Below are positions 3,601 to 28,232 of a stretch of DNA of 32,860 nt, one piece after another (within the stretch, counting starts at the first letter, position 1; each line of letters opens with the position of its first letter). The stretch covers positions 480,094 to 512,953 of the forward strand of contig NW_003155743.1 in NCBI RefSeq assembly GCF_000003605.2, written 5' to 3'. Below the pieces are notes generated by a model, which did no database searches, was not told the origin of the DNA, and saw nothing but the letters and a program-made list of their open reading frames with translations. Both the position numbers and the translations under genes were made by a program. The stretch is from Saccoglossus kowalevskii (lineage: Eukaryota; Hemichordata; Enteropneusta; Harrimaniidae).

Positions 3601-4439
3601 CGGTCACGAACCAATGGCCGCCAATTTATTTGAAACTTAAAATCATAGTTTCCAGGAATATTGCGTCATTATTTTTATTAACCTTTTTTAAATTTCCTAC
3701 AACAAGTCAACACCTGTGACACGTACAAAATAGTTATTTGACAATTAGTTCATCATCCTGCATTGGCAAATATAGTTGGGTACCTACAGGACGCGTGGTT
3801 ACAGTACTGGTTACCATGTTCTGGTATATGTCGCAGAGTGGACTTATCGGGGTCGTGGACCCGCTGGGCGTTTGCTTAAAAATGCACCCGGAATCGGGGC
3901 ACATTAGACGTGCTAACAGAAAGTTTTTTTCTATAGAAATCCATGACAAGAGGGTCAATTTATGTTTATGTGCCGAACACCATTACGTGGTACGCATTCC
4001 TCCCAATCACCCAATTATAACGAAGGGCTAGGATAAAGCACAATCAGTACCAAACTAAAACAGGATTTAGTAGACTGGATGCGAGGTCATAGTATTTACA
4101 GTCTGGGGGGGGGGGACAAGTTGGCATCTCTCCGAAGTTTTACGCTTGTCAGCTGGATTTGCGGTGATGGCAGCAGTTTGTTCTCGTACATCCGGGTATA
4201 CGGCACATCATATAGCAACAGGTTTTTTAATGGTAGACATGATGTATACGGGGTGGCATAGATACGGGACAATGACGGCTTTCAGTCACACACAGCCATG
4301 ACGTAGTATTGTGAACAAAAAAAATCACAAAATCTGGTGACCTGTGTTTGGGATAATAAAACAAAATAAAGTTGAGTGTTCGTCTGCCAGTGAAAATGTA
4401 GTCTAAAATAAGTCCATAGTGCATGGGATGTATCAGATA

Positions 4440-4560
4440 CCGTCCGCCATTGCCATGGAAACGACAGCCTCTTGCACGTTGCGCAAGTCTCGAAGGGGCG
4501 GATAAAAGTGTACTGCGCATGCCCAGAATGCGTCTCCGCCATCTTACCGGCTAATATTTT
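4440..4560 (+). promoter_or_regulatory. Putative core promoter of the RREB1-like gene
   Basis: A cluster of promoter motifs lies immediately upstream of the first coding exon. In order: an X-box-like ATTGCCATGGAAAC (4449-4462), a GC box GGGGCGG (about 4495-4501), a TATA-like ATAAAAG (4502-4508), an NRF1-like TGCGCATGCCC (about 4513-4523) and a YY1-like CCGCCATCTT (4536-4545). The region is more GC/CpG-rich than its surroundings. TATA spacing would put the transcription start near 4530-4540, and YY1 sites often sit just downstream of the start. The start site is an inference and there may be a further non-coding exon upstream. Confidence 0.5.
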
Positions 4561-4606
4561 ATGCATGCATGGTTGTTGATTTGTTTAGAGTGATTTGGTG
4601 TTCATC
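4561..4606 (+). other. 5' leader with three upstream ATGs
   Basis: If transcription starts near 4535, the leader contains ATGs at 4561, 4565 and 4569 (ATGCATGCATGG). The first opens a 10-codon ORF ending at TGA 4591-4593. The second stops at 4577-4579. The third is out of frame with the main start, runs through it to the end of exon 1, and after splicing would terminate at a TAA early in exon 2 (about 35 codons). The main ATG at 4607 has A at -3, a favourable context. This arrangement could reduce main-frame initiation; that part is inference. Confidence 0.4.
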
Positions 4607-4646
4607 ATGTCTCGCCGTAAACAGGCCAACCCAAACCGGGTGTCAG
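4607..4646 (+). CDS. RREB1: Exon 1 (coding part): N-terminal MSRRKQ NuRD-binding motif
   Basis: Forty coding nucleotides give MSRRKQANPNRVS plus one base, followed by a strong donor (CAG|GTAAGT, GT at 4647). MSRRKQxxPxR at the extreme N-terminus is the known FOG/SALL/BCL11-type motif that docks on RBBP4/7 of the NuRD deacetylase complex. The start has A at -3, and the motif must be N-terminal to match its family, so this ATG is well supported. The leftover G joins with TT of exon 2 to make a Val codon. The match between a recognisable functional motif, a perfect donor and the right phase is why I accept so short an exon so far from the next. Confidence 0.8.
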
Positions 4647-7600
4647 GTAAGTTTGCCTGTTAACTTGAATATTGTTTCTCAACATCTTTGAAAGTGTGAT
4701 GTGTGGATGTAGCGAGTGATGTCAAGTTGTCAGACGAAGCCGGAAGCCAGAAGATCTCCGAAGTTAGTGAGCGAGAGTCTCTCAAAGTATGAGTTTATCC
4801 TTTTGTATTCGCTTCAGTGGGCTGGCTCTTTTGTTGGGATGCGGGCGGTGTTTTATCGTTCATCTGTCACCTTTCTTACCTGGAAATTTCCCATACCACG
4901 ATGCCGCGCTGCTAGTTTTAGTCCCCGGAGCACCGCGGATTTTCACCAGAAAAGTTTTAGATTACTTTTTTTTCTGCGTGATCGATGAGAGAAGTTTTTA
5001 AAACCCTTCAAGATTTCTCCATCCGTACGAAGTCACGTCCGCCGGTATTGAATCATTCAAAACCGTGAATAAGTTTTGACGTGCTTTTTAATTACGTTAC
5101 AGAGCGCATCCTGCTTGACTCAACCTGTTAGACCCTACGATTTTTTATTTATATAATATTTTAACTTTAATTTTTGAAGTGAAAACTTCGATGCGTGAAG
5201 GCACCCGTAGATGGGAACAGGAAATGATGCAGTGTGGAAATAAAACGTCCTCTTGAAAATGGTGGGGTTTTGGAATGTGAGCTCTTTGCTCTTAAGACCT
5301 TAGGCAAACAAAATGGCTGACAAGTAACGAGGTGTTGAATTCTACCTTCGCGTTACCTGCAAGCGCACCTGAATATTTTTTATGAACCTGATCTAACTGT
5401 CTCTTTTACCGCGTTTTTTGTTCTAACTCATTAAGGTTTCGAAAAAAAATAATGTTGCGTCAGTTCGTCCGATGGGTGGAAAGTGCTGTGAGGGATGCAA
5501 GTTTGTTCTTGAAACTTTAATTGTACATCTATGATATGCAAATGAGTTGCCACGAAGGGCAGGCCTCATCACGTTTTTGTTCGCTTGCTCCAAAGAGTCC
5601 GACAGAGTGTAAACGATTAAATAAAGGCATATTCAATGTCATATTGCCAGTTGTCCAGGGTATTTAGTCGTGCCCCAAACTCAAGGAGTTTTTTATATGG
5701 TCGTTCAGTCCACCACAACAGGTGTGGCCCCAGATACACAAGTTTTGCCTGGTCAGTCGTTGCCATATGTTAATGATAGAGAAGAGATGTATATCAATGT
5801 TGTGAATTTATTTGTGCGAGGTGGACAAAATTAAGAATTTTTTTTTCATGTTTCCATGGTAACTAATGAGAGCAATTGATATTTACTAATTAAAGTGATG
5901 GAATGTGCTATCGATTGTCTGATTGATTTGGAAATTATATTGGGAGCAAGAAGGAAAAGAAGAAGGACTTCCTCTTTATTTTTCTAATTTGTGGTTGTCT
6001 TTCCTGTTACTAGAATCTGCTGTGGTGTAGTTTTGATGAGTCCATTTCTGCCCCTCAAGCATATGGTAAAACAACAAGGCCAAGGTCATCATCATATTGA
6101 ACTAAAAAAAATGAAATTCTTAGTAAATTCTTAGTTATATTTTGGAGTCAAATAGATGCCAATTTATCTTCAAGAGCATGGTGTTCTTTTTTTTTTAATC
6201 AAGGCAGGCAGTCACTATAGGGGAGCCACTTTATGCCAGGCATTCATTGTTATGCAAATGAATGGTGAAAAGGTGTGCTAGATTTTTCACTATGCTGAGG
6301 CCGTTCCCTCCTCAGTTTCCTTTACTTCTCGGTCGGTAAATGCAGAGCTCTCTTTCATCACTTAAAATACCATATGGGTGGAATTTTCCACTCCCCAAAT
6401 TAGTTTTGCTTGCGCCACTAAATTCCCCTCCAATTAGCATATGCCTTCAGTGATGCCAAATTAAAAAAAAAAGTTCCATCGTTACAGCCTGAGAAATCTT
6501 CGCAGGTAACCTACCATTCTATCTCAGACTACCAATCTATTTTTAGATCTTTCAGCACTTGCTTCAAACGCTTTTCATGCGCCATTATAATACTATTGTT
6601 CGTTTCTCAACTGCCGCCACACCAATGTATGTTGTTGTCTGCCGACTAAAATCTGCATTAAAAAGCACCATGGCATTAGTTTCTTCTAAGGCATCATTAA
6701 ACATTACAAATGTGAAGAGAATACTGCTACGGCACAGGAATTTTTAAAACGCAAAGTTTCATAATGAAAAACAATTTTTCAGTTTATTTGATTTGTTAGT
6801 TTTTAAAGTTAAAAAAATAGAAGGGTGAAAAATAAGTCCACAAAAAAAAAATACGAAATGAGTCATCATATGATTTAAGTAAACAAACGTCTAACCTTGC
6901 ATTCAAAGCATTTGATGGATGGAAGGATGGCTTGGAGGAAATAAAGTCCAAAATGTTATTGTTTTATGGGACCGACCTGTAAGTTGACACGAACACATAT
7001 GAGGTAGAATCAGAGAACTTTACTTGCATCTAAGTTGAAGAATTATTGAATTATCCATTAATTACGGGTGACACTGATCCTATGGGACTTATTGCTGCCA
7101 GTTTTTTTATTAAGCTAACTCTTTATCAGAATTCTGGTGTTTTGTTTACTTGGTAAAATAGTTATCTCCGCTGTTCAAAAATAGTCCTTAACAAAAGTAA
7201 AAAATAATGGGTGATCATCTATCGGATTTAGAAAAAAACCAAAACAATACATTATTATTTTGGAGGTGAAGGTTTTTTTACCGAATTGATTAACTGCCAA
7301 ACCATCAAGGTCTATACATTATATATGGTGTAGTTGTCTCAAGGCCACTGTGGTCTTTATATTACTCCTTCCAAATATTGTTTTATTGTTCACTATTTAT
7401 CATACTGAAAATACCAACTGATGGGTGTACCATGTCTGAATGAGGATAGATGATATTTTGAGAATTCGTATGAGTAAAATTCTATCATAGAGACTGCCGA
7501 CCTTCATATCTCCTCTGGGTCGAGTCTTTAATAATTAACCACTTAATAAGTTAAATTCATCAGATGTTGGAACAAGCTGGTAGATGCGAGAGAAAAAGAA

Positions 7601-19600: not shown

Positions 19601-22600
19601 ACATTTCATATTTTGCAACCTTTCAATCTAATTTACGACTCAAAACTACAAGACTCTGATAACTTCAGATGATAAGTAGAGCACATTGCACAACTGTGGT
19701 GCCGTAACCGTGGAAGCATGCCAGAAACAGACTTTAGACTTGTTACAATAAAAGAATATGTCGTTCCTGCTTTGTGTGTATAATCAGGTACAACCATGAC
19801 AAATTAATAAGATGTCGCACAGCCCCACCTTCCAACAGATGGCCGAGTGCAACTTAAAACGTGTCCTTATACAAATGGTCGGTTGTGTCTTGCCTTCCAG
19901 GCTGAGCTTTTTATCGTTTTACTTAAACTGTTGCTATAAAGAAATGAATTGAAATCATTTCAAATTTATAGCAATTTTTAATTTAAATTAATTTGACTCC
20001 TTTACGACATATGTAAAGTGCTAAAAAAAAGATGCGTTTTGAGACAAGCTAAAGAAAATCTTTTCCCATGGAGTAATTAATTTGATGATACAAAATTGAT
20101 AATAATAATGATGTCATAATGATAATGATGATAATTGATATGTATCATACCGCAGAGCATTATATTTCTATAAATACTTGAGAGTGGCTTTGGTATTTCT
20201 AAATTTATCACACATAGTAGAGTTTCCAATGTGCTAGAGTAACCTCCATATATCTCACTGTAAAGTACTGCCATATTGCTTAAATTGTGTTTGCTTTTCT
20301 ATCGCTGCATTACAAGTTAATTTATGAATGGTTAAAACATTTTTTTCTCTGATGTGCAAATTATTTTTGCTTCAACACAGTGAAAGATGATCATCTGCTG
20401 AAATTTTAATTTTCTAATTGATACCAAGGAGCAGCATCAGACAATGGCGGTCTTTCTGGTTGCCGTGGTAATTGGACTGTGATGTTTATTTATTTATACA
20501 TCATAAAGTGAAATATCCCATGTTATTTTTTTATACTTACATTCCTCCATTGCTAAACTGCCATTCCATGCATTCTTCAGATACAATCGCTTTAAGTTCA
20601 AGTGTAAGAAATGACAATGCTGCATGCATTCAGACAAATTAAATTTCAAACAAATTGAAATTATGGATTATGTGCAACAGCCATTTATGTTTGAACAAGA
20701 ATGGAATGCCTAATCATGAATGAAAAAAAAATAAATAAAAAATAAATATTACAGTCTGAAGTTCGATTTCTGATGGAATTGGAACAAAATGATAGAATGT
20801 AACAGCTGTTGGGGCAGTGTTGGGTAATTGTTGGTTCTTGCTTGGTCTCGATATTTATCCTTGTTGCCATGGTAATAAGGATGTGTGTGTATATATAGTA
20901 TATATACATGACAGGTGGATGGATGTGTGTGTGAGGGGGGGGGGCTAAAAAACAAGTATGATCAGGGCGATGTTGATAAGGGAAGTGAACAGGTTTAATT
21001 TTTAGAGTAAACAATAGCGTGGGAGAAAGAAAAAAATACCTTAACCTCATCAGGAGCATTATTAATAGATAAAATGAAAGCAGCTGACATTGGTTGCCAT
21101 GGTACTCAACATCCTCTCTCGGTCTGCTATAAAATTTGATGGTAGTCATTATGTCAAGTCGGTCCAACCAGCCGCCCCATTTCAATCATCGTGGATAAAA
21201 TATCGCATTATGACACGTTTAGTTCCATAAATGATATCTTTAGGTCCAAATGATGTATCATTCGCTGAGTGGGGTCAGACTCTGCATCTGCATAATTGTT
21301 TTTAATTTACGATGACAGGTATACATAAATGTGGATATACTGTTGTCATAACGATCCATTTGTAATTGTAATTTCATAAATTGTTATGTTTCAATTACTA
21401 AATAGACAAAACAAAGATGGCTATATGTAGGGCAACAAAATACCATATTTTGGCTATGATTTGCCTTCTCTTTAATTGTGACAACATCCTATTACCATAC
21501 CATGCCTGTAATCTTTCTGACAAATCACACATGTGAAGTTACCACTTTCATGAAATATCAATTTTTATATCTGATCATAAAAATTTATGATCCTCAAAAA
21601 TGAATTTTTTTAGTAAAACCTTTTTAGATGTCTTGTCATAATTACATATATTGATTGCTGTTTTTTTTTTTTTTTTTTTTTTTCTTAGTTGGAGCCGGTG
21701 ATGATGAGGCAAAGATAACAGAGAATGTCACTATGGTGATGGAAAGCACGGGAGGTGATGTGATGATGGATAGTGCTCTAAACATTGATACAAATAAAGA
21801 TGCAAGGATACAAGAACATCTGAGAAAACTAGCCAGTCCCAAGAAAGCTGTAGCAGCAGTGAACATCGCTCACGGCGGGGAGAGCAAAGTTTCCGCCGGT
21901 GGAGATGGAGGAAAAAAGAAAACTGTATCTGTATCTGATTTGATGAGTAGTGATGTTGAGTCACAGGGTCTGCCGGAGGATGGACGTTACGAAGTCTGGG
22001 ATGCTAACTCGGAAAGCAATTGTTCTATGCAAAACAGTTTCGGTAATAGTTACAGTGGTAGCGAGGGTTCTCAATTTGGCTTAGATTCCAGCCAGGATGA
22101 GACTGCATTGGTTACCATGGAAACCAGTAATGCCTTCAATAATTCTCAAGAACCCTTTAATGCCAATACACCAATGGGTAAAGGCTTCCGAAAGAAGAAA
22201 GCCAGACACAATGATGATGACGCACAACTGGAAGATAGTGATGAAGACTGGGACGTTACTAAAATACGTAAGCGGAGAAAAGGATACAGTGGAAACCGAT
22301 ATGGGAAAAGGAGAAAAAAGGTAAACAACATTTAAGTTCCAAGTGCTTTTTTGTACTTGTATACCCTTAACAGAATGTCTTGTTAGTTTTAGGTATATTG
22401 ATTAAACCCTTTCACTGCCATTTGTCAACTTTTGTTACCTTCCACACAAAGTAGTGTTTAGTAAACTTAAAAAAATCAAACCAGATTAAAGTGCAAAATT
22501 GTGCCACATTGCAAAATAAAACGTGAAATTGAATGATTCTATAGTATCTATAAGGTAATATTAATTTGTTTGATCTAATATTAACACTGACGTGAGAGAA

Positions 22601-25600
22601 AATTACAGAAAATATCAAAAAATGGCACTCTCATTATGACATGAGAAATAATGTGATGGTGAGAAAGTTAACTTTATAAGAAAAAAAATTCTGATTTTTA
22701 TATAAATCGCACACAGTTCTATAAACTAACCAAATTTCAGCATTTTTCAAAAAAATCATCAAAATTGTCTTGTCCTTTTGTACATTAGAATTTTAAACAA
22801 ATCTTTGAATTTGATGTTTATCTATTATTTGATTTGAATTTGTTCAAAATAAAACTACATTTCTATATTTAGTTGTTTGACACTGCCCTCATTTTTTGCG
22901 TTCCATTCAATGTGTCAATATTTTGTCTTCGTTTCCACAGTAAAAGTCACCTAACATCACCTCTCACAACATTTTTTCCCCAAAAAATTTCACCATAACA
23001 ATTTTTTCATAATTTTTCAAAAATTGTTCTTCAAGACTTGTAGGCAATAAAAAAAATCATGAGTGATCGAACCCAAAAAATATAGAAAAATACATAGAAT
23101 ACATAATACGTAATTATTTAGTGAGATGCACCACCATGGGAGTATCCCCATGTTAGACTTTAATAATGAAGTTACAATATGAGATCTATTTATAATTTTA
23201 AAATTGTAGCACTCAAGTGTACTTTTTAATTAATACTTGGCAGCGTATGGAATGCATGGTGCATCTTATGAAGACTATACAAACCAGGATTACTATTATA
23301 TCATACAAATGTTTTTTTTTTTTTTTTTTAATAAATCTTTGTTTTTTTGTGCTATCTTTACAGAGTAAACCACCTGCTCCAGGAGAAATTGATGAATCAG
23401 ACAAAGGCATGTTTACCTGCCAGATATGTCACAAGGTAACAGAAAGTGCCCATGAATTCACCCTCCATATCAGAAAACACAACGCCATGGACTGCCACAA
23501 CTGCAAGATATGTAGTAAAAAACTCAGCTCCGCTAGTTCGTTGGATCGTCACATGCTTGTGCACTCGGGCGAACGTCCATTCAAATGCAAGATCTGTCGC
23601 CAGGCTTTCACCACCAACGGTAACATGTATAGACATATGCGCATCCATGAAAAGGACAGTAAAATGAACAGTGTGACGATCGCTAATGATTACAGTGTTC
23701 CGAGGCTTAAACTGAAGAGTAAGAGACGCCGACTGATGGAGATCCCGCCTTCGCCACCAAAAGTAAAACTTGAACCCATGGATGGAGAGATCAAACCAGA
23801 GACTGATAAAGAAATGAAAGATATAGATAGCAAAGAAGAGCTGAGTTGTCCAATTTGTAGCAAAACATTCCTTTGTAAATACGGTCTACAAACCCACCAG
23901 GAGATGCATCCAACCATTGCCCAGAGATGTACAATCTGCGACTGTGCCTTTAAGACACCACGTGGTCTACGAATGCACATACTAATGGCACACAAAAGTA
24001 GAAAAACTGGCGTGCAGCCATCTGGACCGGCTCACATTCCAGTTGGCTTTCAAGATCTTGGATTTGCTGAGTTTTCCTCCACAAAATTCCCACTTATAGC
24101 AAAGTCGTGGTGCGAGAAGCACGTGAGGAGATGCAGCAGCTCTTTGCATCAACATGTCTGCCGTACATGCAACAAAGCATTCCCTTGTGTCAGTGCCTTG
24201 AATTTACATGTTAGTTCACATGGTACAATTAAAGCAGATACCTCCGATGATGGGGAAGGTAATAAAAAAATACTGTCACAGCATGATTTCATGTCGGCTC
24301 TTAAGCTAAATCCACATAAGAAACTAGATGAAACTATCGAAAATAAAGACCCAGCAATCAAGTCCAACCAGTACATCATTATCATCAGAAAACCAGCTAC
24401 TGCAAATGGTAATGGTACGACTTACCAAGCAGCTGTACCTGCAACCATAGTAAAAACAGAAGTTCCGCCGCGGAGTACCGTGAAACTCAACATGGTCAAA
24501 TCACCTGTCAGTATTGCACCCAAGCCTCGAATGGAAAACGAAAATGATTTCGCCGATGTACAACAAATCTTAAAGGTCACGTCAAGCTCATCTAATCCTA
24601 TGTATCCGACTCAGTCAGCAGCCACAACTGTGATGTCAAATTCGACAAACCGACCTATGCCGCCACTGCGTAGAATGCCACAACAACCGATCATGCCACG
24701 CCCCATAGTCTGCAATGTACCACCGCCTCCTCCACCTCCGCTAAAGTGTGGACAACTAAACAACATCCATATCAAGCAAGAGATTCATCATCAACCAGAA
24801 TTGTTATCTCCTCTCATCATGACGCCGGAGAATATGATGGCCCAGAGTGTGACACCGGAAGATCTGAGACTGCACAGTAGCGATGGAGACGAGTCTGATG
24901 ACATCATCACTTTTGACACCAACATCAAAAAATCATTAAAGAAAACAAAGAAGTATGCCTGCAAATACTGCAAAGAGGTATTTCCACTCAGTAGGGCGTT
25001 GAAAAGTCACATTAGAAGCCATTTTGGATTGACACCGTACAAGTGTTCCATGTGTAACTATTCCAGTGCAGACAAAAGTACCCTTATTCGACACATGAGA
25101 ACGCATAACGGTGAACGGCCATTCATGTGTCAGATCTGTGAGTTCGCGTTCACCACCAAGGCAAACTGTGAACGCCATGTAAAGAAGAAGCACAACAAGG
25201 CAACGAAGGCTGAAATTGACGTATGCATCTCGTACAATCATTACTTAGCTGACTCATCAGAAAGTACTGAAACGTTCCGTTCTCCAGATACCATCTGTAA
25301 ATACTGCAATAAAGACTTCAAGTTCTTTCGGGCTCTACGTCACCATCTGCGCTCGCACAGCAGTTGCCGTGAAAAACCATTCCACTGTAAAATATGCGAC
25401 AATGGATTCTCAACAAAAAATAATTGCATACGACACATTCTGAAGCGCCACGCTAATCTCTCGCAGGTCGAGGTTGAAGCCGCAGTGATGTTTCATGCAC
25501 CTCTAAAATGGACCAACATTGCTTCAGAGTTGGAAAAGTCCGCATCTGAGTCAGATTCGGGAACAATTGTAAAAGAAGAGTTTGGTGAAGCTGTTGATTT

Positions 25601-28232
25601 TAGCATCAAATACGGTAGCACTGCCGACTTCAGTGAGGATGATATGGTTGAATCTAATGGTGTTGATCCTGAACCGATGGACCTTTCAGTAACAAAGAAA
25701 GCAAACACGGGTGATAATGATGAAATAAATAGTGGTGTGGAAGATGCCAGAAAATTTCGTTTCAGGCCGATTTATCATCGCTACTTCAATGCCGAGTCTG
25801 ATGCCTTAGACTGTCCTCACTGCAACCTGCAGTTCAACAAAGGATGCTTATTTAAAGAACACTTAAGAACACACAGCAGTGAGAGACCATTCCGTTGCTA
25901 CCACTGTTCAGCTGCTTTCACTCTCAAAGAAAACCTTGAAAAACACATGGAGAAGCGTCACCAAGAAGTCAACAAACAGGACCACAAAACTTTTCTCCCG
26001 ACCATTATTTATCCAGCCCAACATAAGCTACTAACCAAAGCTGCCAAGCTAGCCCCTAAAGCCACTTCCAGATCACAAAACAGAGTGCAAGAATCGCCTG
26101 TTAAAGCTGTTCCTGTTACCACCATATTTAAGAAGAATTCTCGAAAGAGATCAACCACTCACAAGTCACCAAGCAACAGCATGGGGTCAGACTCGAGCGG
26201 TGATCTGGCAAGTGTCTCGCGAATGCTAGCAGCAGCAACCAACTGTAATAATTTTGAAACATTTCTGAAAAGCAAAGCAGTAGTTGAGTGCAAGGAGGAA
26301 GATGAGGATGGAGATGATGAAGGTGCCATGGTGATTGATGATAAATCAATGAGTGAACCAACAACTCATACAAAATCTAGAGTTTCTGCAAAATTGAGAC
26401 GAAACTCCTTCCCAAGCATCAATCAGAAGTTGTCTTGCCCATATTGTCCCCGTACATTCCCATGGATTAGTTCTCTGAGACGACATATATTAACACATAC
26501 TGGTGTCAAGCCGTTCCGATGTCCACAATGTGGTGTTTACTTTTCTACCAAGTCAAATTGTGAGAGGCATATGTTACGAAAACACTGTAATAACAACGCT
26601 GCTGACATCAACTTTCGCAGACTGACTGAACGTCCATTCAAGTGCCACATGTGCATGAGCAGTTCGTTTTCTACCAGACAACGCCTACGTAGACATTACA
26701 TGATGAAACATCCCGGTGCTTCCATACCAGAATACGAAGGCATTGAAGACATCCAACCAGAAGAAGCTCCTGTGATCATTTCGGGCACTGATTTTGTAAA
26801 CTTTGAAAACAACGGACTTGACGACTCTTTAAAAGAAACCGACTTTGTAGCACTGAGCCAAGAACTTTCTAAAACTAACTCTGAAGTGATGGCGAAAGCT
26901 GTACCAGCAAACGAGGATAGCTTACAGTGCAATGAAGTTCTTGACGAATCTCAAGACAATGAGGATGTCAATGAAACTCCTGCTGATGTATCAAAAACAA
27001 CTTTCATCAAAGTTGCTAGCCAAGAAACAAAAAGAAAAACTGGTGCTGCTGAAATCAACAAATGTACTGAGATCATAAATGATGCTGAAGACGAGGACGA
27101 AGATGATGATGAAGATGATCTGAACTCCAGTAATGCCTCATCCTCGTCATCACCAAAGAAGAGAGGCAGAAGAGCTAGTGAAAGAATTGCTTGCGATATA
27201 TGTTCTAAGCAATTCAAATATGCCACTACACTAACCAGACATATGCGTATACATACTCTGGCCCATCCGTTTAAGTGTACTGACTGTAACGCTCGATTCA
27301 CCACCAAGTTTAACTGTCAACGTCATATTATGAAGATTCATAGCAAAAATAAAGAGGACGTTTTGTACATTCATGAAACTCTGTCGGATGAAGATAGCAA
27401 TGAAAAGGCAGTTAGTAATACAGCAACACCGGTCGTTAGTGCTGATCCTGTTGTGGAAATGGAGCCAAATGAGCCAGATGTACAGAGCAACACTCTTAGC
27501 TTTGTTGAGGTGAAATTTGACAACAAAGGAAACAGTTGTAAAATACCGGAAAACTATCACCAGAGAAAGAAGAAGTGTGAAATCTGTCAGAAACGGTTTT
27601 GGTCCAAGCAAGAGTTGCAGCGTCACCTCAGAACGCACTCACATGAAAAGCCATTTGCCTGTGAGCAGTGTGATCGTTCCTTTTCACTGAAACACAGTCT
27701 AATGCGACACATGCGTGTTCATCAGGATGAGAATGATGAGAAAGATTCAAAAACTAAGGCTAATACATCTGTGGAAGAGCCTAGTGAAGAAGATGCTGCT
27801 CAAACTCACAAGCGGCTGAGAAGAAAGAGAAAACCGTTAGAAAAGAATGAAACAACTGGAAAAGAGGCGACACAGGGTGCATCACATTCATCTGTTGAGG
27901 GACTTGATCCTGGTGTGGTTGTGGTGAATCCAGAAGCACCCCCGGCATCACCCAAATGCTGTGAAAAAAAAATGCCTTGGGGCGCTAATGATACAATTGA
28001 AGCCGACTCTGAGGTGTACATGACATCTGCAGAAGACGACCGTTCTATGTTAATGAAAGAAAGTTCAGAGCCTGATATGTTTACGCCAGGTGACGAGGTC
28101 ATTGCTTCATGTATGGACAATTCAGATATCATCCAGAATCTTCTTGGAATACACGATTCTTCAGTTATAGACCAGATGTTGGATTCTGCAGACTCGGCAG
28201 CTTCTGCGGCTAAGTTGCTTGGTATGGAATAG
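4607..28232 (+). CDS. RREB1: RREB1-like C2H2 zinc-finger transcription factor (three-exon gene model)
   Basis: Join of 4607-4646, 21689-22320 and 23364-28232: 5,541 nt, 1,846 residues plus stop. The introns are phase 1 and phase 0, and the frame is kept through both. Twenty C2H2 fingers lie approximately at residues 243-263, 271-291, 299-319, 386-406, 413-434, 490-510, 757-777, 785-805, 813-834, 869-889, 899-920, 1041-1061, 1069-1090, 1249-1269, 1277-1298, 1318-1340, 1501-1521, 1529-1550, 1629-1649 and 1657-1677. Known for the family: RREB1/Hindsight proteins are long nuclear factors (about 1,700-1,900 residues) that bind RAS-responsive elements and act downstream of RAS/MAPK and with TGF-beta/SMAD and Notch signalling. 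The identification rests on the finger layout, the SSASSLDRH finger and the FQDLGF/WCEK block. Further small exons inside the 17-kb intron, or alternative first exons, cannot be excluded. Confidence 0.85.
5850..5863. promoter_or_regulatory. RFX X-box-like palindrome
   Basis: GTTTCCATGGTAAC matches the GTNNCCATGGNAAC form of the RFX-factor X-box exactly. It lies in the first part of intron 1, about 1.2 kb from exon 1. Activity is inferred from the motif only. Confidence 0.4.
8027..8239. mobile_element. MITE-like element with terminal inverted repeats
   Basis: The left end ATACTGTGGAATACTTTATT and the reverse complement of the right end ATACTGTGGAGTACTTTATT differ at one position. Imperfect pairing continues inward for about 40 bp (TTCGCTGGAATTAA against CTCGCTTGGAATTTA). 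The whole element is about 213 bp and has no coding capacity. CAGT is present directly outside both ends and may be a 4-bp target duplication. Inside, a motif GGATTTTATTTTCAC is repeated (about 8095 and 8160). Non-autonomous DNA elements with an ACTGTGGAAT start are familiar from mollusc and other invertebrate genomes; superfamily assignment is uncertain. Confidence 0.6.
8351..8364. promoter_or_regulatory. X-box-like site (imperfect)
   Basis: GTAACCATGGTGAT keeps the CCATGG core and the left GTAACC half-site but is imperfect on the right. It is about 110 bp downstream of the MITE-like element. Confidence 0.25.
10322..10334. promoter_or_regulatory. X-box-like site, GTTGCTAGGCACC
   Basis: GTTGCTAGGCACC resembles the GTTGCTAGGCAAC type of X-box. 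A very similar GTTACTAGGCACC occurs at 11888-11900 in the same intron. It opens a motif-dense stretch at about 10.3-10.5 kb with few homopolymer runs, a candidate conserved non-coding element. Inference from motif only. Confidence 0.3.
11888..11900. promoter_or_regulatory. X-box-like site, GTTACTAGGCACC
   Basis: Differs from the site at 10322-10334 by one base. A POU octamer in reverse orientation (CATTTGCATA, 12191-12200) follows about 300 bp downstream. Regulatory role is inferred. Confidence 0.3.
12266..12279. repeat. 14-G homopolymer run
   Basis: An uninterrupted run of about 14 G residues in intron 1. Such runs vary in length between individuals and are prone to sequencing error. Shorter G or C runs occur near 2134, 4105 and 20935. 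Confidence 0.8.
12461..12482. repeat. 11-bp tandem duplication
   Basis: TGTGCATAGAC occurs twice head to tail with no spacer. It lies at the left edge of a less AT-rich stretch (about 12.47-12.78 kb) in intron 1. Probably a replication-slippage product. Confidence 0.7.
12732..12745. promoter_or_regulatory. Two X-box half-sites
   Basis: GTAACCTTGTTGCC contains two X-box-type half-sites (GTAACC and GTTGCC) separated by TT, in direct rather than inverted orientation. Weaker than the palindromic sites elsewhere in the intron. Confidence 0.2.
14259..14839. promoter_or_regulatory. Cluster of RFX X-box-like sites
   Basis: Three sites lie within 580 bp: GTTTCTATGGAAAC (14259-14272), the perfect X-box palindrome GTTGCCATGGTAAC (14745-14758) and GTCATGGCAAC (14829-14839). 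A POU octamer ATGCAAAT follows at 14891-14898. The intervening sequence (about 14.4-14.9 kb) has higher GC and fewer homopolymers than average for the intron. This is my strongest enhancer candidate in the intron by motif content alone. Confidence 0.4.
16024..16431. promoter_or_regulatory. Paired RFX X-box-like sites
   Basis: GTCACCATGGCAAC (16024-16037) matches the GTNNCCATGGNAAC pattern exactly. GTTTCTATGGAAAC (16418-16431) is identical over 14 bases to the site at 14259. A half-site GGCAACC sits at about 16388-16394. Regulatory role inferred. Confidence 0.35.
16958..16970. repeat. Short TG microsatellite
   Basis: About 6.5 TG units in intron 1, preceded by a small GC-rich patch (about 16935-16957). 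Confidence 0.8.
18595..18605. promoter_or_regulatory. POU octamer (reverse orientation)
   Basis: TCATTTGCATA is the reverse complement of TATGCAAATGA, which also occurs at 5535-5545, 6251-6261 and 9640-9650, and again in reverse at 30345-30355. The 16 bases TCTCTCATTTGCATAT are identical here (18591) and at 30341 in the 3' region. Octamers are classical POU-factor sites; use here is inferred. Confidence 0.3.
19027..19045. repeat. TG microsatellite
   Basis: About 9.5 uninterrupted TG units in intron 1, likely length-polymorphic. Confidence 0.85.
20459..21106. promoter_or_regulatory. Cluster of three RFX X-box-like sites
   Basis: GTTGCCGTGGTAAT (20459-20472), GTTGCCATGGTAAT (20863-20876) and GTTGCCATGGTACT (21093-21106) lie within 650 bp, all in the same orientation, in the last 1.3 kb of intron 1. 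Each keeps a perfect left half-site and a degenerate right one. A simple TG/TA tract and a 10-G run (20935-20944) sit between the second and third sites. Confidence 0.4.
21661..21683 (+). repeat. 23-T polypyrimidine tract at the intron 1 acceptor
   Basis: An uninterrupted T run of about 23 followed by CTTAG, with the exon starting at 21689. It functions as the polypyrimidine tract of the 3' splice site, but it is also a slippage-prone homopolymer. Confidence 0.8.
21689..22320 (+). CDS. RREB1: Exon 2: acidic/Ser-rich linker and nuclear localisation signal
   Basis: 632 nt encode residues 14-224. The acceptor is TTTCTTAG at 21681-21688; the donor is AAG|GTAAAC with GT at 22321. Phase in is 1, phase out is 0. 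The segment has no zinc finger. It is Ser/Asn/Asp-rich, with an acidic patch at about residues 188-202 (DDD, EDSDED). It ends with basic clusters at about 181-186 (RKKKAR) and 205-224 (KIRKRRK, then GKRRKK), which together form a plausible bipartite nuclear localisation signal. The sequence GTTACCATGGAAAC (22111-22124), encoding part of LVTMETS, is also an exact X-box match. No homology to a named domain was recognised. Confidence 0.8.
22321..23363 (+). other. Intron 2 (1,043 bp, phase 0)
   Basis: It runs from GTAAAC at 22321 to CTATCTTTACAG ending at 23363. If retained, translation would add V-N-N-I and stop at 22333-22335. It is very AT-rich, with AATAAA at 22515, 22848, 23046 and 23330 and an 18-T run at 23312-23329. 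The downstream open frame extends back to 23217 only because the intron end lacks stops; the T-rich, hydrophobic translation there is not coding. Confidence 0.8.
23364..28232 (+). CDS. RREB1: Exon 3: all twenty C2H2 zinc fingers, CtBP motif, C-terminus
   Basis: 4,869 nt encode residues 225-1846, with TAG at 28230-28232. Fingers come in groups: 1-3 (about 243-319), 4-6 (386-510), 7-9 (757-834), 10-11 (869-920), 12-13 (1041-1090), 14-16 (1249-1340), 17-18 (1501-1550) and 19-20 (1629-1677). Most groups have TGEKP-like linkers (SGERP, NGERP, REKP, SSERP, TGVKP, HEKP). Between fingers 5 and 6 is a non-finger block (about 443-489) with FQDLGF, KFPLIAK and WCEK. The 511-756 linker is Pro/Met/Asn-rich with a seven-Pro run. 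PMDLS (25674-25688) is a CtBP-type motif. SUMO consensus sites are VKLE, IKPE, VKTE, IKQE and VKEE. Acidic stretches lie near 1464-1476. The C-terminus (LLG.HDSSVIDQML...AAKLLGME) looks helical. No frameshift or lost zinc ligand was seen; finger 16 has one extra residue before its first His. Confidence 0.95.
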   Translation, partial: SKPPAPGEIDESDKGMFTCQICHKVTESAHEFTLHIRKHNAMDCHNCKICSKKLSSASSLDRHMLVHSGERPFKCKICRQAFTTNGNMYRHMRIHEKDSKMNSVTIANDYSVPRLKLKSKRRRLMEIPPSPPKVKLEPMDGEIKPETDKEMKDIDSKEELSCPICSKTFLCKYGLQTHQEMHPTIAQRCTICDCAFKTPRGLRMHILMAHKSRKTGVQPSGPAHIPVGFQDLGFAEFSSTKFPLIAKSWCEKHVRRCSSSLHQHVCRTCNKAFPCVSALNLHVSSHGTIKADTSDDGEGNKKILSQHDFMSALKLNPHKKLDETIENKDPAIKSNQYIIIIRKPATANGNGTTYQAAVPATIVKTEVPPRSTVKLNMVKSPVSIAPKPRMENENDFADVQQILKVTSSSSNPMYPTQSAATTVMSNSTNRPMPPLRRMPQQPIMPRPIVCNVPPPPPPPLKCGQLNNIHIKQEIHHQPELLSPLIMTPENMMAQSVTPEDLRLHSSDGDESDDIITFDTNIKKSLKKTKKYACKYCKEVFPLSRALKSHIRSHFGLTPYKCSMCNYSSADKSTLIRHMRTHNGERPFMCQICEFAFTTKANCERHVKKKHNKATKAEIDVCISYNHYLADSSESTETFRSPDTICKYCNKDFKFFRALRHHLRSHSSCREKPFHCKICDNGFSTKNNCIRHILKRHANLSQVEVEAAVMFHAPLKWTNIASELEKSASESDSGTIVKEEFGEAVDFSIKYGSTADFSEDDMVESNGVDPEPMDLSVTKKANTGDNDEINSGVEDARKFRFRPIYHRYFNAESDALDCPHCNLQFNKGCLFKEHLRTHSSERPFRCYHCSAAFTLKENLEKHMEKRHQEVNKQDHKTFLPTIIYPAQHKLLTKAAKLAPKATSRSQNRVQESPVKAVPVTTIFKKNSRKRSTTHKSPSNSMGSDSSGDLASVSRMLAAATNCNNFETFLKSKAVVECKEEDEDGDDEGAMVIDDKSMSEPTTHTKSRVSAKLRRNSFPSINQKLSCPYCPRTFPWISSLRRHILTHTGVKPFRCPQCGVYFSTKSNCERHMLRKHCNNNAADINFRRLTERPFKCHMCMSSSFSTRQRLRRHYMMKHPGASIPEYEGIEDIQPEEAPVIISGTDFVNFENNGLDDSLKETDFVALSQELSKTNSEVMAKAVPANEDSLQCNEVLDESQDNEDVNETPADVSKTTFIKVASQETKRKTGAAEINKCTEIINDAEDEDEDDDEDDLNSSNASSSSSPKKRGRRASERIACDICSKQFKYATTLTRHMRIHTLAHPFKCTDCNARFTTKFNCQRHIMKIHSKNKEDVLYIHETLSDEDSNEKAVSNTATPVVSADPVVEMEPNEPDVQSNTLSFVEVKFDNKGNSCKIPENYHQRKKKCEICQKRFWSKQELQRHLRTHSHEKPFACEQCDRSFSLKHSLMRHMRVHQDENDEKDSKTKANTSVEEPSEEDAAQTHKRLRRKRKPLEKNETTGKEATQGASHSSVEGLDPGVVVVNPEAPPASPKCCEKKMPWGANDTIEADSEVYMTSAEDDRSMLMKESSEPDMFTPGDEVIASCMDNSDIIQNLLGIHDSSVIDQMLDSADSAASAAKLLGME

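Follow-up and report, generated by a model that had tools for sequence, protein, structure and literature searches.

A short exon for an N-terminal NuRD-interaction motif is probably the first coding exon of RREB1 in the hemichordate Saccoglossus kowalevskii

Does the RREB1 gene of Saccoglossus kowalevskii begin with an exon that lets its product recruit NuRD directly? The question is raised by 40 nucleotides, positions 4607 to 4646 of the window, by which we mean the whole stretch of 32,860 nucleotides of DNA that was analysed here. According to the available text of three papers, the motif RRKQxxP at the N-terminus of a protein binds RBBP4/7 and recruits NuRD (PMC11602157, PMC6644156, PMC8079813). 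For BCL11B, binding at 0.133 uM is reported (PMC6644156). Our reading is that the coding sequence of the RREB1 (Hindsight) orthologue probably begins with these 40 nucleotides as its first exon, and that they would give the protein the N-terminal NuRD-interaction motif MSRRKQANP.

The predicted gene is made up of the following parts.

4586..4588, plus strand: upstream in-frame stop codon (TAG), the nearest one, seven codons 5' of the ATG and with no ATG in between

4607..4646, plus strand: coding part of exon 1, giving MSRRKQANPNRVS plus one nucleotide and carrying the RRKQxxP N-terminal NuRD-interaction motif, from sequence reading, pattern search and codon score

4647..21688, plus strand: intron 1, GTAAGT...CTTAG, about 17 kb, from splice-site reading

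21689..22320, plus strand: exon 2, coding, phase 1, in frame with exon 1, from splice sites, frame and codon scoring

23364..28232, plus strand: exon 3, with the RREB1 zinc fingers and the C-terminus (ending in LLGME), stop codon included

The 40 coding nucleotides of exon 1 read ATG TCT CGC CGT AAA CAG GCC AAC CCA AAC CGG GTG TCA G and are followed, from position 4647, by the donor GTAAGT. The ATG lies at 4607-4609, and it opens the frame because of the in-frame TAG that stands seven codons upstream at 4586. Exon 2 starts at 21689 behind a polypyrimidine tract with the end CTTAG, and at its 3' boundary, position 22320, AAAAAAG is followed by GTAAAC. The predicted phase-1 join between the first two exons links MSRRKQANPNRVS to VGAGDDEAKITENV. 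Joined together, the three exons give 5541 nt, or 1846 codons and residues, with no internal stop, consensus splice sites and matching phases. MSRRKQANP makes up residues 1-9 of the predicted protein, so that RRKQxxP directly follows the initiator Met and a Ser, and as in the other carriers of the same genome the motif sits on its own short first exon with a phase-1 donor. Splice sites and frame fit the predicted joining of the motif exon into the RREB1 mRNA. The number of N in the window is zero, which means that a single gap-free stretch holds exon 1 together with the RREB1 exons. A preliminary description of this DNA had proposed the 40-nt exon, its motif, its donor and its phase match to exon 2, and these are confirmed by sequence reading and by the open frame.

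Codon usage adds to this picture. Scored with a codon table derived solely from the gene's own exon 3, just 0.17% of 6984 stop-free intron stretches score equally high as exon 1, and just 0.27% of 6228 such stretches score as high as the first 15 codons of exon 2, through the first Met. Since the beginning of exon 2, as far as its first ATG, looks coding-like, we would expect a coding exon further upstream and a translation start 5' of exon 2.

Might exon 1 be an unrelated ATG stretch in which MSRRKQANP stands ahead of a GT by coincidence? We searched 572,110,611 bases with a degenerate pattern for MSRRKQxxP (ATG-WSN-MGN-MGN-AAR-CAR-N6-CCN), which gave five genome matches, against one for the backwards control. 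Composition alone lets us expect between 1.6 (window composition) and 4.3 (uniform composition) matches genome-wide. Five hits are therefore weak evidence by themselves, and to this extent the search and its control speak for chance. In the window, however, the expectation is only 9e-5 to 2.5e-4. That the first donor-like site should also fall at exactly 40 nt has a probability of 0.4%, and exon 1 lies upstream of a multi-finger repressor gene, like three of the four other MSRRKQ exons. We regard a chance match as extremely improbable.

The form of the matches points in the same direction. The serine codon is TCN in all five MSRRKQ matches although the pattern allowed others (chance about 0.25 each), and all five have a phase-1 donor-like site at most 73 nt downstream. 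A second pattern, for MPRRKQxxP, has one genome match, on scaffold C1911. Taking the first donor-like GTRAK past the motif as the end of the exon, we compared the five MSRRKQ exons and the MPRRKQ exon, and found that 6/6 end in phase 1, that 6/6 have a purine at position -3 and that 4/6 are exactly 40 nt long. The lengths given by the predicted donors are 40 nt for FOG, 52 nt for BCL11, 73 nt for SALL and 40 nt each for the C4122, RREB1 and C1911 exons. Random intron positions have a phase-1 first GTRAK no more than 76 nt away in 6.4% of cases, and a first GTRAK at exactly 40 nt in 0.4%. The genomic context of the MSRRKQ matches is not that of chance, and marks a putative family of first exons.

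The MSRRKQ matches are found on scaffolds C174, C1938, C3174 and C4122 and in the window, and three of the four outside the RREB1 gene lie upstream of FOG, BCL11 and SALL. On C174 the FOG gene lies about 47 kb downstream on the same strand, and its ORF, seen in part, matches the Pfam family CCHC_ZFPM2 (PF25445, E 3.5e-12). A PDB search with this FOG-type gene returned weak CTCF matches only, so its identity rests on the Pfam match and the form of the fingers. On C1938 a BCL11 exon is found about 9 kb downstream, again on the same strand, with a match to Pfam CCHC_BCL-11A (PF25491, E 2e-13) and to BCL11A chains in the PDB. A reconstructed BCL11A finger pair has, among the best 150 of 1156 candidates scored, a single match (E 1e-14) on C2177 and not on C1938, and the BCL11 assignment at C1938 rests on the CCHC finger. 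On C3174 the SALL gene lies 38 kb downstream on the same strand; its first 637 codons match generic finger families of Pfam only, and the next 697 codons have ZNF568 as their top PDB match, then SALL4 and further SALL3/SALL4 chains. The phase-1 join of the motif exon into the SALL exon gives an open frame. As a tiny exon 38 kb away from its partner, the SALL motif exon serves as a positive control for an arrangement of this kind. Joins were computed for RREB1 and SALL only, the donors of the other motif exons being predicted.

Two further motif exons were observed in the genome. At C4122:661848, on the plus strand, a 40-nt phase-1 exon reads MSRRKQAAPRSIK, which we take to resemble the vertebrate relatives of OAZ. 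No multi-finger ORF was found near it in the 70 kb read, 36 kb of which is N. Its assignment to OAZ itself is not supported, as the OAZ orthologue, with 68% identity to a reconstructed ZNF521 sequence, is found on C610, a scaffold on which the MSRRKQxxP pattern has no match. The match on C1911 (560544-560569, minus strand) reads MPRRKQQSPKRLK, another 40-nt phase-1 exon, presumably of Teashirt/ZNF827 type.

A second question is whether the MSRRKQ exon could be real but belong to another gene, for instance a zinc-finger gene past RREB1 or one lost in a gap, with RREB1 starting elsewhere. There is room for such a gene, as N stretches adjoin the window on both sides, about 20 kb upstream and 7.75 kb downstream, and the OAZ orthologue on C610 is without a paired motif exon. 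Yet exon 1 shares with the RREB1 exons one gap-free stretch, the strand and a matching phase, FOG, BCL11 and SALL each own a MSRRKQ exon, and the 17-kb intron shows nothing clearly coding under codon scoring. The best intron stretch scores 14.1, which is below the 14.5 reached antisense to exon 3 and the 19.0 reached in a wrong frame of exon 3, while exon 2 scores 51.5; a hidden gene in the intron was rejected on these values. Over the final 26 kb of the scaffold, where 7.75 kb is N, the one further zinc-finger ORF detected lies on the minus strand. No rival partner gene for exon 1 was found in the readable sequence of the intron and the scaffold end. What counts against the assignment to RREB1 is the distance of 17 kb between exons 1 and 2, and a genome motif count that is not above composition. 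On this evidence we consider another owner of the exon unlikely, and keep to RREB1.

The surroundings of the window were also inspected. A zinc-finger ORF on the minus strand downstream of RREB1 (C4510:536478-537461) looks to us like ZNF341, and a 427-aa ORF upstream of the window, also on the minus strand (C4510:456818-458098), is presumably a heparan-sulfate sulfotransferase.

How well is the downstream gene itself identified? Aligned with a reconstructed reference for residues 1-990 of human RREB1, the predicted protein has 292/823 identities (E 3e-138), and the alignment takes in the zinc-finger order, the non-finger linker IPxGFxDLGF and the SKPP at the start of exon 3. An erroneous reference could hardly agree in this way with a sequence obtained independently; the reference is still a reconstruction. 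Genome-wide, a single match to the linker reaches E 0.001 or better, and it is in the window (eight candidates scored); by this search the predicted gene is the sole RREB1-type gene found in the genome. That the gene is of RREB1 type, as had been proposed before, is thus supported against the reconstructed human sequence by both the identities and the linker. Pfam finds zinc-finger families only in the predicted RREB1 protein, and residues 1-221 are covered by none of the 15 BLAST matches. Judged by the same 990 reconstructed residues, vertebrate RREB1 has the same finger order, linker and SKPP, and a PxDLS motif is found in both proteins. The difference is at the N-terminus, which in the reconstructed human RREB1 begins MTSSSP and is without the MSRRKQ motif.

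If exon 1 does belong to RREB1, it need not start every RREB1 protein. The first exon with the motif might be an alternative one, a minor one or one limited to certain tissues, with most RREB1 lacking the motif and working via CtBP/LSD1 and SIN3A only. Isoforms with and without the motif are described for Ush and SALL2 in the accessible text of PMC7891773 and PMC7937961. The Drosophila Ush isoforms arise via alternative promoters and splicing, and possession of the motif and binding of dNuRD are confined to Ush-B (PMC7891773); in SALL2, MSRRKQ is part of isoform E1, which is set against isoform E1A (PMC7937961). In addition, the in-frame ATG in exon 2 could start a shorter protein. On the other hand, the codons of exon 2 ahead of this ATG are coding-like, and at least some transcripts are therefore probably translated through the junction. 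We think a minor first exon a serious prospect, not far short of an even one. By analogy with Ush-B and SALL2, promoter use could act as a switch in RREB1 too, where another first exon, or the ATG in exon 2, would give an RREB1 without the NuRD dock.

A promoter is presumed to lie upstream of exon 1. In 500-bp bins, the CpG observed/expected ratio ranges over 0.81-1.68 between positions 1 and 5500 and over 0.20-0.83 between 5501 and 21000, where one bin is above 0.8. This profile puts exon 1 close to the far edge of a CpG-rich 5' domain, which ends about 1 kb past the exon. Two candidate elements, whose motif names are our assumption, lie 5' of the ATG.

4449..4462, plus strand: X-box (presumably RFX-type) in the presumed promoter, an exact match to RTTGCCATGGMAAC

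4536..4545, plus strand: element presumably of YY1 type, CCGCCATCTT, 61 bases 5' of the ATG; the single match in the window, with 0.01 expected

X-box 14-mers with at most one mismatch are found in the window at 4449, 5850, 14745, 20863 and 22111, with 0.09 expected; these five places correspond to six matches over both strands, and one place is within coding exon 2. A NRF1-like site at 4514 is without significance (2 matches against 0.64 expected, a number reached by 15/100 shuffles). A 43-codon stretch on the minus strand, at window positions 4076-4204 and so 5' of exon 1, has a codon score of 16.4, higher than every intron stretch.

What would the motif do for RREB1? The window peptide retains every residue of the RRKQxxP consensus, and its R11 also supplies the basic residue that the internal variant has at position 8. 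RREB1 in this animal can probably recruit NuRD directly, as far as the peptide tells. The exposed basic N-terminal peptide would bind to the acidic face of RBBP4/7, as we infer for the RREB1 peptide, and this docking would bring NuRD, with HDAC1/2 and Mi-2, to RREB1-bound genes. Two RBBP4-like stretches are found in the genome, with identities of 90% and 96% to a reconstructed human RBBP4 (positions 284-393 of 399 searched), one of them with a TAG inside the aligned part that is perhaps an exon edge. A PDB search with the peptides gave no matches, the queries being too short to inform. The remainder of the predicted protein offers two further candidate docking sites.

21823..21846, plus strand: RKLASPKK, residues 59-66, which fits the internal NuRD consensus RKxxxPxK/R

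25674..25688, plus strand: PMDLS, residues 995-999, a docking motif of the PxDLS class, which we take to be CtBP-type; 0.037 expected per shuffle

The internal PMDLS would be a second corepressor dock, for CtBP/LSD1, and the likely picture is that of a DNA-binding repressor with two docks, one for NuRD and one for CtBP/LSD1. The reconstructed part of human RREB1 has one PxDLS (PIDLS), so this motif looks conserved. It also has one RK...P.[KR], but elsewhere (RKVLYPCR), and the internal NuRD-like pattern may therefore be incidental. In the predicted protein RK...P.[KR] has two matches, of which one is the N-terminal motif, with 0.05-0.08 expected per shuffled protein. The RKLASPKK of exon 2 may be likened to the internal NuRD motif of ZNF512B/PHF6 in that it fits RKxxxPxK/R, a short pattern. 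This internal consensus is given in the part of PMC11602157 that was available.

For mammalian RREB1, the corepressors emphasised in the available text of the literature are CtBP, LSD1/CoREST, HDAC3 and SIN3A (PMC7085234, PMC3964310, PMC7495420). The protein is found in a CtBP complex (PMC7085234), associates with KDM1A and HDAC3 (PMC3964310), and associates with SIN3A and co-elutes with RBBP7 and HDAC1/2, the co-elution with RBBP7 being in HEK293 (PMC7495420). The word NuRD does not occur in the accessible text of PMC7085234 and PMC7495420, and the accessible text of PMC11602157 and PMC6214896, both of which name motif carriers, does not mention RREB1. We found no report of the motif in RREB1 in the literature searched, as far as its text was available and with subscription papers mostly outside its coverage.

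The comparison with other motif carriers shows both likenesses and differences. FOG/ZFPM and Ush-B resemble RREB1 in having multiple zinc fingers, an internal PxDLS and MSRRKQxNP, which in the FOG of the same genome is on a 40-nt phase-1 first exon; this FOG-type gene has both MSRRKQxxP and a PxDLS motif (PLDLS). It is a separate gene from RREB1 in the same genome, and while RREB1 has DNA-binding C2H2 fingers, FOG has CCHC fingers that bind GATA factors. SALL and BCL11 are like RREB1 in their N-terminal MSRRKQxxP first exon ending in phase 1, with the next coding exon about 38 kb (SALL) and about 9 kb (BCL11) off, but their first exons are longer (73 and 52 nt) and the proteins are different.

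The RREB1 exon has 21-23 of its first 27 bases in common with each of the four other MSRRKQ exons, and silent positions differ. Its 60-base flanks match those of the other four at 12-22 positions, where about 15 are expected by chance. In view of the silent differences and the chance-level flanks, we reject the idea that the exon was lately copied from one of the compared sister genes. A blastn comparison among the five loci found a single cross-match, between the BCL11 and SALL exons (30/32 bases). The exon comparison would fit either inheritance or an old capture, and the recurrence of the 40-nt phase-1 form tips the balance towards an old module held in common. In flies, Ush was the first protein found with the motif and OAZ the second, via sequence analysis (PMC7891773, available text). 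As Drosophila Hindsight is not among the fly carriers named there, it seems to lack the motif, an absence that is only implied in that text. One tentative scenario, which we find possible but on balance doubtful, is that FOG, RREB1 and other bilaterian zinc-finger repressors inherited the 40-nt phase-1 NuRD exon as one ancient module. The ancestral RREB1 would then have been a RAS-responsive NuRD recruiter, and vertebrates and flies would have lost or hidden the exon. The alternative is that the hemichordate lineage gained it.

RREB1 ties RAS/MAPK signals to gene repression and is linked to Noonan-like syndrome, according to the available text of PMC7495420. If our reading is true, a NuRD-docking first exon adds a direct NuRD route to this repressor, and one that would be switchable by promoter choice. 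Phosphorylation of Ser2 could also switch the NuRD route of RREB1, as in BCL11B, where it impedes binding of the motif (PMC7158892, as far as available). The finding raises the question whether an upstream exon of the same kind is present in any vertebrate RREB1.
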